From positions 1 through 64,000 of the forward strand of contig JARULB010000006.1 in NCBI GenBank assembly GCA_029688905.1: a stretch of 64,000 nt of DNA, read 5' to 3'. The number at the start of each line of letters is the position of its first letter. Position 1 is the stretch's first letter. The notes under the pieces are model-generated. The model saw only the letters and a list, made by a program, of their open reading frames with translations, ran no database searches and was not told the DNA's origin. Shown in pieces: positions 37,516-47,336 of the stretch. The position numbers and the translations under genes were made by a program. This DNA is from Balneolales bacterium ANBcel1. Lineage in GTDB: Bacteria; Bacteroidota; Rhodothermia; Balneolales; Natronogracilivirgulaceae.

Positions 37516-40500
37516 ATGTCCACAGTCCGTTTATTTCAACAACCCCGCTTCTTCCTGCTCACCCTTTTTATCATCGGCCTGATGGCCCCGGCGGTTACCG
37601 TGCCCTCGGCTTTTGCCGGCGGCTCCCACTGGTCACCGGAGGACATCGTCAGCCAGGAACGAGCCGGGCAGTTTGCATTTTCCCCCGACGGGACAATAAT
37701 CGCATGGGTCAAAACCCGTAATTCAAGTGAGAAGGACCGCAATGTCACGGACTTGTACCTGACCCGCCTGGACCGCACTGCGGGCAACAGTCCATCCGGC
37801 GGCCGCTCCGCTGGTGCCTCTTCGGAGGACGAAGCTTCATTTCTGACCATACGCCTGACCCGCTCCGAAGAGTCGGACCGCAACCCCTTTTTCTCCCGCG
37901 ACGGTAATCTGCTCTATTTTCTTTCATCCCGCGATAACGGCAACAAACTGTGGGCCATGAATCTCCATGGAGGAGAACCGTATGAGGTGCATGAATTTGA
38001 CGAAGGGATCCGTAGCGTTCAGCAGCTCGAGGACGGCACCATCACCTTTCTGTCTGATGAGGGCGACCTGCTTATCGAGACTGAACGAAAGGACCGGGAA
38101 GACAACACGCAGGTGATCGAAGATACCGTCACATTCAAACCTGTGCGGCTTTTTTCATTTGATCCGGATTCACGGCAGGTCCGCCGCCTTACCGACAACC
38201 TGTTCCCGATTTCCACCTACGCGGTTTCGGACGACGGGCGCTTCGCCGTAACCGGGCACACCCGCAGCCCCCATTACGGCGCCGATGCCCATCCGCCCCC
38301 CTCCTACTTTTTCTGGGACCTTGAAACCGGCAAACGAATACGCATTTTGCAGGGGATGCAGACCCCCGGAAACTTCTCATTCACCGACGACAATCGGGGC
38401 GTCTATTTTTCTGCTGTGACCTCATCCGACCCCCAGTGGAGCGGTGCCGGTATCTCCGAACTCTATTATATGGAGATTCCGGAGGATGAACCGCTTGCGC
38501 GGATTATGGAAGCTCACGCGACCAACGCACGGGCCGAAGCCGAGTCAGCTAGCAGCAAACCCCATCCTGCCCGCATCGGCCAGGCGAACAATCGGGAAGC
38601 GGAGGTGTCCGGCAATGCGGATACGGCGGACAACCGTCAGGCCGGCAAAGGGCGTACCACAGATGCCGGTGCCGGTTCGAAGCCGGGAAGCGATGAGCCG
38701 AATGGTGGCGGCAACGTTGACCGATTCGGATTTCTGCCACCCGGCGAAGTGCCCGATGGCCCTCTGAGTGTAGTGAAGGTCCCGCTGGATTGGGACTGGG
38801 CCCTCGGCTCCGGCTATCATGTACTCGGTAATGATGTTCTCGCATCGCTGGCCGATGGACCGACCCGCAAACTGGCCCATTACGAACGTCGTGGCAACGG
38901 AGAATGGCGCAAACGAGAGGTAGATGCCGGAAAGCACAACGGGCGTGTGGCTATCGCCGCCATCGCGGAAGACCATTCGAACATGGTATTCGTCCATTCC
39001 ACCGCCTCAACCATGCCGCAGTACCGAATCGGGGAGCTCGATGTGCGCCGCCGCAGCGCACAGCTTTCCGAGGGCAAAGAGCTGTTCCAACTGAACAGCG
39101 GGTTGCGGGACAAGCACATAGCAAAAACCGAGATTTTTCGCTGGACCGGGGCCGAAGGCACCGAGGTAAACGGCATTCTCTACTACCCGGAAAACTACGA
39201 TCCCGAACGCCGTTATCCGCTTACCGTGGCGATTCGCGGCGGACCCGCCGCCGTTACCCTCGACTGGTGGAATATGAGCTGGGCCTATTTCCCGCACATC
39301 CTGTCACAAAAGGAATCGTTTGTACTGATGCCCAATTACCACGGCTCTTCCAGCCACGGACTGGAGTTCGTGGAGTCGATCAAGGGCCGCTATTATGAGC
39401 TGGAACTGATCGATATCGTCAACGGGATCCAAACCCTGGACGAGCAGGGCAAGATCGATACAGATTCGCTCGGGGTGATGGGCTGGTCGAACGGATCCAT
39501 CCTCAGTATCGCGCTTTCGATTGAATATCCGGAGATGTTCCGGGTGGTCGGGGCGGGAGCCGGCAACGTGAACTGGATCTCCGATTACGGGACCTGCATG
39601 TTCGGTGTCCGATTCGACCAAAGTTATATCGGCGGAGCGCCCTGGGACAGTACCGGCGCCCTGTTTTACAACACGGCATACATCGAGAAATCGCCGATCT
39701 TCCGGATGGACCAGGTCAGGGCTCCAACCATTATCTTTTTCGGCAGCGAGGATCGCGCCGTGCCGCGTGATCAGGGATGGGAGCATTATCGTGCGCTTCA
39801 ACAGATTGGCCGGGCACCCGTCCGTTTCCTTTGGTTCCCCGGTCAGCCGCACAGCCTGCAGAAACTGACGCACCAGACCCGCAAACTGAAGGAGGAGATC
39901 GCCTGGTTCGACCGATATCTGTTCGGCACCTACGAAGAGCCGAACCGGGCCTTCAAGGATGACAGCCCACTGGCCGAACTGCTGAAGCGTGACAGCCTGG
40001 CCAGCCACGGCGGATATTACGGCGTCCGCAACAGCGACAAACTGATTCCCGAAGTAGTGCCGATCGGATCAGCGCAAAACGGAAACAGCGGGTTCCCGGA
40101 AGGGTCGGCCATCGGACGCTTCCAGGTCACCAACAAGCAGTTCCAGGCGTTTGATCCCGAGCATGAGTTCCATCCCCTCATGGGTAATCACCCTGTGCGG
40201 TATGTGACGGTGGATCAGGCCAGGGCCTACGCCGATTGGCTCAGCGGTCATACCGGTCAGACCTGGCGCCTGCCCAACGCCGATGAGGCTGAAATCCTGC
40301 ACCGGGCAGCGCACCGTGCCGGAGCCCGGCAGAACACGCTGAACCGACTGGCCGGTTACGACATCACCGTGGACGAAGTGCAGCTGCTGCGAAGCAAAAC
40401 AGATCTGCTGCCACCCGACAGACTCATCACCCAGGCCGGCAGTTTTGGTCCCGTGACCGTCGGAGAGGCGGAGATATACGACCTTGGCGGAAATGTAACG

Positions 40501-40689
40501 GAGTGGGTGGATACCGGTGCGAAGGGAACCGGGACCGCCAAAACAGGCGACAACAGCCGCGGGGTTCACGCGACTGACACCTCCCCGGCCGTTTACGGAT
40601 TCAGCGCTATCGACTTTGTCGACAAGCGTGACGCATCACGTCCGCCGCCCAGGCTCTCTTTCACCGGATTCCGGTTGATTCGCGAGTAA
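37516..40689 (+). CDS. S9 prolyl-oligopeptidase-type peptidase fused to an FGE/SUMF1-like domain
   Basis: A 1057-residue exported protein. The signal peptide is MSTVRLFQQPRFFLLTLFII..., cleaved near AFAGGS. A WD40/TolB-like propeller (EDIVSQERAGQFAFSPDGTIIAW) is followed by the alpha/beta hydrolase domain with Ser658 in GWSNGS, Asp746 in SEDRAVP and His779 in GQPHSLQ. A disordered Gly/Asn/Ala-rich insert of ~80 residues sits near residues 335-410. From about 840-866 to the end lies a formylglycine-generating-enzyme-like domain (IGRFQVTNKQFQAF, RLPNADEAEILHRA, YDLGGNVTEWVD, FTGFRLIRE). That region has no cysteine, so it cannot do the cysteine-dependent FGE reaction; binding is likelier. An ATG at 37477 is a possible earlier start. 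It is monocistronic on the plus strand. Confidence 0.88.
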   Translation: MSTVRLFQQPRFFLLTLFIIGLMAPAVTVPSAFAGGSHWSPEDIVSQERAGQFAFSPDGTIIAWVKTRNSSEKDRNVTDLYLTRLDRTAGNSPSGGRSAGASSEDEASFLTIRLTRSEESDRNPFFSRDGNLLYFLSSRDNGNKLWAMNLHGGEPYEVHEFDEGIRSVQQLEDGTITFLSDEGDLLIETERKDREDNTQVIEDTVTFKPVRLFSFDPDSRQVRRLTDNLFPISTYAVSDDGRFAVTGHTRSPHYGADAHPPPSYFFWDLETGKRIRILQGMQTPGNFSFTDDNRGVYFSAVTSSDPQWSGAGISELYYMEIPEDEPLARIMEAHATNARAEAESASSKPHPARIGQANNREAEVSGNADTADNRQAGKGRTTDAGAGSKPGSDEPNGGGNVDRFGFLPPGEVPDGPLSVVKVPLDWDWALGSGYHVLGNDVLASLADGPTRKLAHYERRGNGEWRKREVDAGKHNGRVAIAAIAEDHSNMVFVHSTASTMPQYRIGELDVRRRSAQLSEGKELFQLNSGLRDKHIAKTEIFRWTGAEGTEVNGILYYPENYDPERRYPLTVAIRGGPAAVTLDWWNMSWAYFPHILSQKESFVLMPNYHGSSSHGLEFVESIKGRYYELELIDIVNGIQTLDEQGKIDTDSLGVMGWSNGSILSIALSIEYPEMFRVVGAGAGNVNWISDYGTCMFGVRFDQSYIGGAPWDSTGALFYNTAYIEKSPIFRMDQVRAPTIIFFGSEDRAVPRDQGWEHYRALQQIGRAPVRFLWFPGQPHSLQKLTHQTRKLKEEIAWFDRYLFGTYEEPNRAFKDDSPLAELLKRDSLASHGGYYGVRNSDKLIPEVVPIGSAQNGNSGFPEGSAIGRFQVTNKQFQAFDPEHEFHPLMGNHPVRYVTVDQARAYADWLSGHTGQTWRLPNADEAEILHRAAHRAGARQNTLNRLAGYDITVDEVQLLRSKTDLLPPDRLITQAGSFGPVTVGEAEIYDLGGNVTEWVDTGAKGTGTAKTGDNSRGVHATDTSPAVYGFSAIDFVDKRDASRPPPRLSFTGFRLIRE

Positions 40690-40818: not shown

Positions 40819-41271
40819 TTACCTGAAATTCAGAAAGATCGGGCTCTGCAGCTCGGCAGCCAGTGCAGCGGCTTTCTCGAAAGCGGCCAGGCACTCCTGC
40901 TGCGATTCGGCGCAACCCGGGATTACATGTGCTTCCATCGGCTCACCATCACTGCCGAATGCATAACGATCCGAGGATGCCGCGCAGGTGATTTCGATCG
41001 TCATCGGCGTATAGATACTGAATGACAGGATCGCCACAACCTGATTCAAAAAAGACAGTTTGGTTTCTACCTTTGCGACACCGTCGCTGCAATAGCGCTG
41101 TGCTTCGATGGCATCGTCGAGCGTTATCAGCCCGTTTATCAGCGTGGAATGCCAATTCTCCGTATGCACCTCTCCGGATTCCGGCAGCCCGGTTGTGACC
41201 TGCGCATGGTAACATCCGGTCAAAAAAAGCACCACGATAATCATGGTGGCAGATAGCATCATCCTTTTCAT
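40819..41271 (-). CDS. Bor-family-like lipoprotein
   Basis: A 150-residue lipoprotein with lipobox LTGC (Cys20). Residues 25-100 match the Bor (lambda Bor/Iss) pattern: TGLPESGEVHTENWHSTLINGL, then a Cys region (AQRYCSDGVAKVETKLSFLN), then IYTPMTIEITCA. Bor is an outer-membrane lipoprotein linked to serum survival in lysogens of phage lambda. Chromosomal Bor-like proteins are common in other phyla and their role is unknown. The C-terminal ~45 residues add two more cysteines. ATG 41271 is preceded by GGGGAG. It is convergent with the S9-FGE gene. Confidence 0.75.
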   Translation of the reverse strand: MKRMMLSATMIIVVLFLTGCYHAQVTTGLPESGEVHTENWHSTLINGLITLDDAIEAQRYCSDGVAKVETKLSFLNQVVAILSFSIYTPMTIEITCAASSDRYAFGSDGEPMEAHVIPGCAESQQECLAAFEKAAALAAELQSPIFLNFR

Positions 41272-41807
41272 AACTCCCCATTTTTTTTTGTTTGTCGCCG
41301 GTCTCCATCTATTCCGGAAGAGATCGAGCTGTTTTTGTTTCAGGCTCCGGTTGCCTGTTATGCTTGAAACCATCATTCATCGCCCGGGAACTCCCGAGTG
41401 ATAACAGGATACATCGCTCCGCCCCATCCGTTTTGACAAGGTCCGCATCAATGCTTATCATGCTGATCCCCGTTCGGTCATTTTCCGGAAAATCCATGTC
41501 CCGTTCGGCAGATCGCTGCCCCCCGGACGATGATTCGACTGAGCTAATAAAACTTGATGCTAATTCTCCAGTTACCTGTACCGCAACCAAATATACCAAC
41601 AAACCAATTCTCGTTTGCTGTTTTTTTGGGAACAGCACCCTCCGATTTCACTTCATCAACTGTGCTTCCGATGGACTCTATATCCATATCCATGATAAAT
41701 CGGCCTCCGCTTTAGGATACCCCGGTTCATCCTCTCATGGAAATTATCGAGTCATCATCCCGGAAAAACCAGGCAGCCTGCCTGAAACAACGAACTAACC
41801 ATTGCCT
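41272..41807. other. Divergent intergenic region Bor-like / acidic repeat protein
   Basis: This 536-bp region must carry promoters for both flanking genes. Apart from the doubtful small frame at 41309-41638 I see no gene, hairpin or repeat that stands out. Confidence 0.45.
41309..41638 (-). CDS. Doubtful small exported protein
   Basis: A 109-residue frame starting at GTG 41638. The N-terminus has a positively charged start (KKQQTR) and a hydrophobic stretch (IGLLVYLVAVQVTG) like a signal peptide, and GGAGG abuts the GTG. Against it: the SD-start spacing is zero, third codon positions are less GC-rich than in neighbouring genes, and the C-terminal half resembles no family. Listed only as a possibility. 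Confidence 0.22.
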   Translation of the reverse strand: MLFPKKQQTRIGLLVYLVAVQVTGELASSFISSVESSSGGQRSAERDMDFPENDRTGISMISIDADLVKTDGAERCILLSLGSSRAMNDGFKHNRQPEPETKTARSLPE

Positions 41808-44402
41808 ATGAAACCCCTCCGTATACTGCTTGCAACGATTCTTGTCACCACCTTTGCCTCTCAAATCACATCCGCACAGGAGTTCCTGTACGCTGGCGGG
41901 CCGCTCAACGAAACCTCCAGCTGGGTGGAAAACGGCGGTGCTCACCCCGACGATTTTTCTACTCCGGGACAGCAATTCCGTATATCGGACCATGATCCGC
42001 ATACCGATGGCGACTGGACCCTTTCGGGGGAAGGAAGCTCGCTGATCATCGACACGGATGAAGACATAGTGTTTGCAGCCGGTTATACGGTGACCCTGGA
42101 TGGTATCACCATCTCGTTTACGGGTAATGCGGGTGGCGACCTTGAAGCGCAGGGGGATCTCACTCTGGCAGGTACTATTGCCTGGGAGTACGACGACACC
42201 GGGGATGTCTGGAGTTTCGATTACCGGGATGACGGCGACCAGACCATCACCGCCGGCGAAGAGGCGCACCTCCTGGTTTACAATTTCCGCTCTGACAAGG
42301 AAGAGGGCTCCTTGGATCTGGTGGCCGCGGAACCGGGCGGAACCGTACTCCAGACCTATAACAACTTCCGCACCAACTATCGCGACGGGTCGCTCTTCCG
42401 CGACAACGGCAACCGGATTGTCGTAGGCGACGACATCCGTATTCGTGGCGGCGCTGATAATTACGATTTCACAGGTACTCTCGAACACCGGGTGCACGAC
42501 GGCAACTCCGACTATGAAGAGGTTGTCGCCGAACTGAACAATCTGTACATCCATGTCCGTGGCGACGGTAACCCCCGTTTTCGTGATGATGAGGAGTATA
42601 CCCGGGATATCATTATCCGGTCGGACCTTATCGTGGATATGGAAAGCAGCGGCGACTTCGAGTTCAATGATGTCCGGCTCACCATCGGCGAAGACTTCCG
42701 GATCACCCATCATCGTCCAGCCGGCACCGGTGACGACGACGACGCCGAAATGGACATGGATGACGCGGAAATCCATGTCGGGGGCGATTTTATCGTGTCC
42801 GTCTCCAAAGAGGAACCGGACGGTGATGAAAACATCGACATGGACGACGCCGTGGTTCACGTAACCGGCAACTTGCAAATCACCGCCTCCGATAATGGAG
42901 AGTTCGATTTCGACGCCTCATCCGTTACGGTGGAAGGGGATATGGAGCTGATCCAGACCGACTACGGCATCATCGACCTGGACGAGTCCGTGCTGGCTGT
43001 GGACGGCAACCTGCTTATCGATGTTAACGGATTCGAGGACTTTGAAATGGGTGAAGCAGTGGTTACCGTTGGCGGCCATATGGAGATCATCCATCACCGC
43101 CCGGAAGGTGCCGACGGCAACGGCGAAGTGGACGCGGATGATGTGACTATTGAAACCGGAGGCGACTTCATTATCCGCCTCTCAAAATTTGAAGAGGATG
43201 GTGACGAAAATATTGATATAGATAACGCCGTGGTTACCGTTGGCGGCAATTTTTACGTCTTTGCCGATGCAAACGGAGAGTTCGACCTGGACGATTCCCG
43301 TGTTACCGTTCCCGCTGGATATGTGCGGATGGAAGCCTCCGAAAACGGTATAATTGACCTGGATAACGGCACGCTTATCGTCCATGGTGACGTCACATTT
43401 GTTCTGGATGGATCCGGTGTCCTGGATCTGGACGACAGTATTCTGGAGCTTTCCGGCTCTCTTGTCGTTGATGCGCCGGTAGAAGCGGTTATCATGACCG
43501 ACGAGTTCACGGCACGCTTTTTCGGTGATTCCGACCAGTCGGTTTCCGGTTTGGCCGGGCGCCATTACCATGTGCTTGAAATCGACAAGGACGGCGGACA
43601 TGTAAGCCTTCCCCAGACCCTGACCGTCAACGAGCTCTTTTTTGCCACCCTGGAGAATAACGCCTCGCTGTCGGATGATGGCGGCAACATCCGCATCAGC
43701 CACTGGTTCGCTCTGCAGGGGCACGCGGAGAGTTTCGACCTGCAGGGATCTGTAACCCTGCTCGAAGTTCCGGAGCCTGTTGATGATGGCGAGGAAGCCG
43801 TTGCGAAACATGTGCCCGGTTCTCACGACACTGCGGACGATCCGCAGGGAGAGCTTCGGTTCGAATACCAGCAGGTGAGTCCGGTTGATGTAGCCTTCGA
43901 ACTGTTTGTACAGGCGGAAATGGACACCGCTTCGGCAGGCAACGCCGAGCTGTTCACCCTTTCGGAAATCAATGCCGTTGCATCGGGAACCGTACTGTTC
44001 TCCGAAGCCGCGCCGGTATTTCTGGTCCGCCAGCAGCCGGAAGGCCCCGCCGGCCAGGTGATTCTCTCCGAATTGACATGGCGGCTGCCTGATGATGATC
44101 CGTTCCCGACAGACAGCGAAACAACGCCCGGCGTTCCTGAGGAAATCAGCCTCGAACAAAATTATCCCAACCCGTTTAATCCGGCCACAACCATACGCTA
44201 TGAATTGCCGGAGCATTCTGATGTGAGACTGGCCGTATATGACCTGCTGGGCCGCCAGGTGGCGTCGCTTGTTCAGGGGCAGCGGGCAGCAGGCCGGCAC
44301 CAGATCACTTTCGATGCGTCGCATCTTTCAAGCGGTGCCTATATCTACCGGCTGGAGGCGGGCGGACTCACCCTGACCCGTCAGATGATGCTGCTCAAAT
44401 GA
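41808..44402 (+). CDS. Acidic repeat surface protein with C-terminal sorting domain
   Basis: An 864-residue exported protein (signal peptide [24 protein letters not shown]). The body is very rich in Asp and Glu and made of beta-strand-like units. A ~130-residue block at about 288-417 is repeated at 418-545 ([72 protein letters not shown]). The fold is probably a parallel beta-helix or stacked beta-solenoid with possible Ca2+ binding. The last ~85 residues are a sorting domain ([20 protein letters not shown] ... MMLLK). ATG 41808 is chosen over a TTG two codons earlier. Its 3' end overlaps the convergent nfo gene by 8 bp. Adhesion or matrix function is a guess. Confidence 0.85.
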
Positions 44403-45281: not shown

Positions 45282-47336
45282 TCAGTCCTGGTTGAGTTGA
45301 ACACCCAGCGCTTCAAGATCGAGCCAGGAGTCCGGTTTTACAGTTACGGGTTCTTCAGCCAGGAAGGTTTCGAACCAGCGAAGCATCCTCAGGTTGTAAT
45401 CAAAGCGGGAAGTAGAGTGCACGTTGCCGTGTCCTTCATCGGGATACCAGACCAGGCGAAGCGGCACTTCCGGCTTGCGAACCTTGATATGGCGGTACAA
45501 CTCCAGCGACTGGGCGGGGTGTACGCGGGTATCCTCTTCGCCATGCATGATGAGGAGCGGTGTTTGCGCGTTTTCTACATGATAAATCGGACTCCGTTCC
45601 AGGTTCCACTGCCAGTGATCCCAGAGGCGTTTGCGGGAATGAACCAGATAGAGCTCTTCGGGGATGTCGCTGGTGCCCCATTTGGAGATGTTGTTACTGA
45701 TGCCGACAAACATGACCCCGGCCGCAAAGCGGTGGGAATAGCGGGTCGACATCCATGCGGTGGCATATCCGCCGTAGGAGCCGCCGGTGACACCCACGCG
45801 ATCGGCATCGGTAATTCCCTGTCTGATCAGGTAATCGACGCCATCCACAATATCATCAAATTCGGCGCCGGCAAGGTCACTTTGGCTGGATTTGATAAAT
45901 TCGATTCCGCGCCCCGTGCTGCCCCGGTAGTTGGGATAGAACGTAGCGAATCCGCGGCCGGCGGCCACCTGGCCGGGCAGGGAATAGCCGGTAAGCCAGC
46001 CATTGCTGTAATGCGCTTCGGGTCCGCCGTGCACCATCACAATCGTGGGATAGGGTCCGCCGGTCTCTTCTACCGGGTAAATCAGCAGGCCTTCGATGTT
46101 ACGGCCGTCTCTCGCCTCATAGCTGACAACTACCTGGCGGCCCATGGGAACTTCATCCAGCCACTCGTTGGAATGGGTCAGGCGTACAAGTTCGTCGTTA
46201 TCGGCATCAAGAAGGTACACTTCAGAGGGATGGGACGGAGTCTGGACAGAAAAAACAACCGTACCGTCATCGGAAGTCACAAAACGGTTCAATACGGGAC
46301 TGTCGATGCCGAGCCGGCGCTCAAAGCCGGAGCCATCGGGGTTAATGGTACCGAATGAACGGGCGGTGCTTTCACTGGCGATAAATCGGATCTGGCCGTC
46401 ATCCGTCCAGTTGATCTGCTCGAATTTTCCATTGAAATCCGGGTAGATGTTTTCGGGGGTGCCGCCATCGCTTGATACGATCATAATGCGTCCGTCGATG
46501 GGATCGTGGATGCTGTTTCCGGCGCGAAGGGCCAGCAGGCTGCCGTCCGGACTCCAGGTTATCTGCCCCAGTTTCCCGGCGTTATCGATTTCGACGGTTA
46601 CCTCGGCGGTTTCCGGATCAACGATTTTGACCTGTTGAAACATGTAGTAGTCATCGATATTCGGGGTCGGGGTTTCCGAGATGGCCAGCCGGTCGCCGTT
46701 CGGGCTCCATGTCATGATGTAAATGGTGCCGTCGATCTGAATGCGGCGCGCTTCCGGATCGTCGGCAGTGAGATCGACCAGATACCCTTCCCGGTTTGGA
46801 ATATTCTCCTCATAAAAAGTCGGCTCATAAGGAAGCGGATTCTCGGGCAGGTCCAGCTGCTCCATGGAAATCACCGACAGCGCATTGCCGGAGGGATGCC
46901 AGCTATAGGCGGAAATGTTGCTGAAATGCGCATAAACCTGACTGATATCACCGGATACCGGATCAAGTTCATAGAGTGTGACAAAATCGTCATCCTCCTT
47001 GTTACTGGTGAAGGAGAAAGTGCCGTGATCCGGCCTGACAGCGATATTGCCGGCCCGGCTTTCCATTTCGATCTGCGTATGCGTGTCATCCTCCCGGTCG
47101 ATCAGGTAGAGTTCGGTGCGATTCCTTGCATTATCTTCGAGAGGATCGACCGGAACCGTTCGCGTGTAGAGGATGAAACGGGCATCCTGGGATATCTGAA
47201 TGGCCCCGACATTTTGGATGCTTGCCAGTTGCTGCGGGGTGAGGGGTTCTGCCTGAAGCGATCCCGCCCATACTGTCACAAGAGCGAAAATAGCGATATA
47301 AAACGTGATTCCTTTTGGTAACGATGTTTTTTTCAT
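45282..47336 (-). CDS. S9 family prolyl-oligopeptidase-type peptidase
   Basis: A 684-residue exported serine peptidase. A signal peptide ([20 protein letters not shown]..., cleaved near LQAE) is followed by a TolB-like propeller with repeated blade stretches ([53 protein letters not shown]). The alpha/beta hydrolase domain has Ser520 in [11 protein letters not shown], and acid and His near [12 protein letters not shown] and DEGHGNVH. This is the S9C/acylaminoacyl-peptidase-like type. It probably degrades oligopeptides in the periplasm. It is a distinct gene from the S9-FGE fusion and only distantly similar. Confidence 0.93.

Follow-up and report, generated by a model that had tools for sequence, protein, structure and literature searches.

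An old, conserved fusion of an S9 peptidase with an FGE-like domain that has lost the catalytic cysteine segment

The window, a stretch of 64,000 nucleotides from Balneolales bacterium ANBcel1 (contig JARULB010000006.1), encodes on its forward strand a single protein that joins an S9 peptidase to an FGE-like domain. The mechanical open reading frame reaches upstream to 37033, and a start near 37516 was favoured on the basis of the signal peptide and the alignment of orthologues. The parts of this gene and the genes downstream of it are listed below.

37516–40689, + strand: S9 peptidase–FGE-like fusion gene, 1057 aa; open frame without an internal stop, present as the same single ORF in 28 relatives
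37516–37620, + strand: signal peptide, residues 1–35, read by eye (hydrophobic N-terminus, AFA before GG; N-termini of relatives alike)
37651–39075, + strand: beta-propeller region with PD40 repeats, residues 46–520 (PF07676, 4.4e-11); the whole-protein model matches S9 propeller peptidases
38506–38760, + strand: low-complexity, fast-evolving insert in the propeller region, residues 331–415 (0–85 residues long among relatives, where pairwise identity averages 0.15)
39076–39924, + strand: S9 catalytic domain, residues 521–803 (PF00326, 1.7e-30; invariant triad)
39487, 39751 and 39850, + strand: codon positions of Ser658, Asp746 and His779
39925–40059, + strand: connector, residues 804–848 (45 residues, except in one of 13 members, which has 47)
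40060–40686, + strand: FGE-like domain, residues 849–1057, without the catalytic cysteine segment (PF03781, 1.3e-10; profile matches to ToxD, 1.6e-10, and PvdO, 1.6e-7; empty cysteine columns)
40819–41376, − strand: small lipoprotein-like ORF just downstream of the fusion gene (Lambda_Bor, PF06291, 4.2e-13)
41802–44402, + strand: repetitive protein; its tail matches a type IX secretion sorting domain (PF18962, 5.8e-10)
45282–47336, − strand: second S9 peptidase without an FGE-like domain, 5 kb away, which falls among the unfused proteins in the S9 tree

A sequence-only reading of this DNA had proposed the fusion, and the proposal is borne out by one uninterrupted 1057-aa ORF in which both Pfam families match, Peptidase_S9 at residues 594–802 and FGE-sulfatase, above its cut-off, at residues 865–1030 (41.8 bits against 23.3). 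Judged from sequence, the fusion is real, conserved and built from known parts. The notion that a frameshift or misassembly fuses two separate genes carries almost no weight, as it is refuted by relatives that have the same single ORF in independent assemblies of several classes; the frameshift considered in the earlier reading is thereby excluded. Since a signal peptide, read by eye, is present and the protein ends in the FGE-like domain instead of a type IX sorting tail, it is most likely Sec-exported to the periplasm. This refines the earlier description of the peptidase as secreted.

In the peptidase half, Ser, Asp and His occur in this order in a catalytic domain that follows the propeller, as in peptidase family S9. 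Ser658, Asp746 and His779 are invariant in a 13-row alignment that includes relatives down to 41% identity and, together with the PF00326 match, uphold the earlier claim of a complete triad; from this intact triad we infer peptidase activity of the fusion protein. The nucleophile motif is GWSNG in all 29 fused proteins and matches none of the four S9 subfamily motifs given in PMC12871690. The S9C motif of that work, GGSYGG, is absent from the fused proteins, and S9C is their nearest subfamily by PDB match only. The best sequence and fold matches are PDB 8wt1, 7ep9 and 5yzm, which makes the S9C carboxypeptidases and acylaminoacyl peptidases the nearest relatives of the fusion peptidase by sequence and fold. 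Assignment to DPP5 (NF053518) was rejected at 115.7 bits against a threshold of 900, and assignment to the lasso peptide isopeptidases (NF033523) at 86 bits against 400. At residues 574–577 (39235–39246), RGGP replaces the S9 motif HGGP in the window protein and 12 Balneolales relatives; HGGP is kept in all other fused relatives checked. The sole cysteine of the window protein, C694 (39595–39597), belongs to the peptidase domain, where it follows the nucleophile and precedes the Asp. It is invariant across the aligned relatives, in the context GTC.FGV (GNC in one).

The C-terminal domain belongs to the FGE-sulfatase superfamily, with a PF03781 match in the window protein and in 13 of 13 aligned relatives, which all match the S9 Pfam family too. 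Motifs retained in the fused domains are VTN/ITRAQ, HPV/NYP, WL..TG..RLP, NTL..WAGY, GNVAEW and GFR/GLR. We aligned the 29 fused FGE-like domains with 30 further FGE domains, for the most part the top scorers within the same class. The catalytic Cys columns of RGGSF-x-C-x4-C are filled in 17 of the 30 other domains and are gaps in 29 of 29 fused ones, in an alignment that is approximate around this segment; in two fused proteins (L025 and L026), RGGA is kept and the stretch after it is shorter and free of cysteine. A cysteine pair at the catalytic site thus occurs in 0 of 29 fused proteins, and the absent C-x4-C pair after RGGSF rules out a catalytic formylglycine-generating enzyme. The earlier remark that the domain has the family motifs but no cysteine holds for the window protein, whose domain contains none, and fails as a family trait: in five relatives (L016, L017, L018, L025 and L026) the domain contains one or two, at scattered positions. 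As read from the alignment, missing cysteine as such is weak evidence, and what is diagnostic is the loss of the catalytic pair together with its segment.

The profile search proposed by the sequence-only reading supports its family assignment, as a profile of the domain also retrieves solved structures of the fold: ToxD (1.6e-10), PorK/GldK (2e-9 to 3e-9), PvdO (1.6e-7) and SUMF2 (7e-5). A Foldseek search with the domain model (mean pLDDT 62) returned ToxD (2.5e-4) and PvdO (2.8e-4), then CarF and PorK, with low TM-scores, and we count these predicted-fold matches as support only. The whole-protein model (mean pLDDT 64) retrieves S9 carboxypeptidases and acylaminoacyl peptidases; both models are too weak for judging an interface or the shared pocket that the earlier reading had suggested looking for. 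Among named NCBIfam families, PvdO comes closest to the domain (1.4e-7), and it is also one of its best solved structures, which could point to a cysteine-independent enzyme, as PvdO may be. We regard this as improbable: the domain reaches 30.9 bits, far under the PvdO threshold of 500 (NF051459), its invariant residues are mostly those common to FGE folds in general, and a metabolic neighbour conserved outside Balneolales was not found.

Fused relatives were found in several collections. A species-genome collection yielded 18 loci, and all 16 that cover the C-terminus have both domains in one ORF; these come from Balneolales, Flexithrix, Splendidivirga, a Cytophagaceae bin and a Ca. Aminicenantes bin. 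Altogether, the search for other S9-FGE fusions that the earlier reading had suggested returned 28 relatives with the same two domains in one ORF, from Balneolales, related class members, Cytophagales and a Ca. Aminicenantes bin. Within the phylum, 13 of 296 sampled genomes (the present one counted) have a close relative, all of them open frames of 910–1219 aa. The FGE-like-domain profile, run against 146 genomes of the class, gave 22 strong matches (170–333 bits), one per genome and all in ORFs of 910–1219 aa; the only other match below 1e-12 scored 50 bits. In 21 of these 22 ORFs the frame also contains GWSNG; the remaining one (L098) was not recognised by the script. In the 146-genome class sample, this FGE-like subfamily was thus seen only as the tail of this S9 peptidase. 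The fusion had been called uncommon, and it is indeed patchy in both samples and conserved where found.

In an S9-domain tree of 55 rows (29 fused and 26 unfused, built with a quick method), the 29 fused domains lie on one side of a single branch with an SH-aLRT support of 100. The stem of this branch is long (1.34), so where it attaches among other S9 peptidases is less certain than that it is one group. As the fused proteins form one branch with this support, a single old fusion explains all 29, and by tree and genome survey the S9-FGE fusion is old and conserved and forms a single-copy family that occurs in several bacterial lineages. In another reading, the C-terminal domain is an inhibitory extension lost by self-cleavage, modelled on plant CGEP (S9D), which sheds a C-terminal tail by autocatalysis (PMC12871690). 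That tail has 15 residues and is absent from bacterial homologues, whereas the extension here is a folded domain of ~210 residues conserved across phyla, and we hold self-cleavage to be very improbable.

The genomic surroundings give the fusion gene no constant partner. A conserved operon was rejected because the neighbours are common only to Balneolales, and a neighbour conserved beyond that order was not found; the second S9 gene adjoins the fused gene in several Balneolales too. A defence protein was likewise rejected on the lack of a PADLOC match, and plasmid spread on the lack of any match found. A lasso-peptide link, hinted at by NF033523, was dismissed with its score under the cut-off: no lasso cluster was found beside the fusion gene, the only Transglut_core3 gene of the genome is on a different contig (C2), and seven ORFs around it, scanned with Pfam, gave no asparagine-synthase match. 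A whole-genome search with PF03781 found the fusion locus (1e-10) and one other gene, also on contig C2. This gene (L059; G000 C2:412562-413284) has a frame of 366 aa that starts like a lipoprotein and contains RGGSW but lacks the C-x4-C pair; a canonical FGE is therefore not seen in the genome.

The FGE-like domain might instead be an independent C-type-lectin-like ligand module that would recruit the peptidase to a glycan or peptide bound by it. Such FGE-type folds are variable binding scaffolds in the variable proteins of diversity-generating retroelements (DGRs; PMC6328139) and may act as sensors in systems whose effectors are peptidases (PMC10907252), and variability within the domain is highest at residues 1022–1057 (mean pairwise identity 0.43). 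However, no DGR template copy was found: the 310-base 3' end of the gene matches only itself in the genome (next best E 0.138 over 20 bases), and a DGR-diversified protein is ruled out by the missing near-identical template repeat. The core is conserved, and the domain was never met without the S9 peptidase in the class sample. Estimates of dN/dS for the FGE core are ~0.10–0.13 (NG86; three pairs with unsaturated dS), approximate values since they are near saturation, and at the codon level show purifying selection. Connector length is near-constant, which is indirect evidence; together with the low dN/dS it suggests that selection maintains the domain in a fixed geometry, as an integrated module and not a loose tether. 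We therefore consider a free ligand module doubtful, and the evidence leans to an integrated docking or assembly module more than to a recognition domain.

In the explanation that we consider probable, one old fusion would have placed an FGE-fold domain at the C-terminus of an exported, periplasmic S9 oligopeptidase. The added domain would no longer have cysteine chemistry or be an enzyme of its own, and may be an integrated module with a structural or docking role, comparable to PorK/GldK. It could fix the oligomeric state of the peptidase or substrate access, or hold the peptidase on a partner; we infer these roles in oligomer, access or location. PorK is a published inactive FGE fold that became a docking hub after loss of both cysteines (PMC12421860), and a comparable hub function here would be an analogy only. 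More tentatively, these exported S9 peptidases might be a distinct, unnamed family whose dead FGE/C-type-lectin-fold domain gates proteolysis or targets it, with the FGE fold as a regulatory part.

Our literature search, which left out subscription papers and domain-architecture databases, found no paper on an S9-FGE fusion, and the fusion may still be annotated. Annotation as an FGE domain (sulfatase-modifying, nonheme iron enzyme) would mislead for this protein. It offers a clear case in which the FGE fold has lost its chemistry and been put to another use, here joined to a peptidase, and a conserved single-copy protein on which such reuse can be tested.

Compared with known systems, the peptidase half resembles the S9C carboxypeptidases and acylaminoacyl peptidases (PDB 8wt1, 7ep9 and 5yzm) in its propeller, alpha/beta-hydrolase fold and Ser-Asp-His order, and differs in having GWSNG in place of GGSYGG, ~250 extra C-terminal residues with the FGE-like domain, and export. 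The fused domain shares VTN..Q, HPV, WL..TG..RLP, GNV.EW and GFR with canonical FGE (SUMF1), yet it is shorter and its RGGSF-x-C-x4-C stretch is missing or replaced. PvdO and ToxD are the nearest solved FGE-type domains, but both are stand-alone proteins of biosynthetic pathways without a counterpart here. PorK/GldK of the type IX secretion system are likewise cell-envelope proteins whose FGE fold lacks the catalytic cysteines; unlike the fusion protein, they are ring subunits with insertion domains and have no peptidase.
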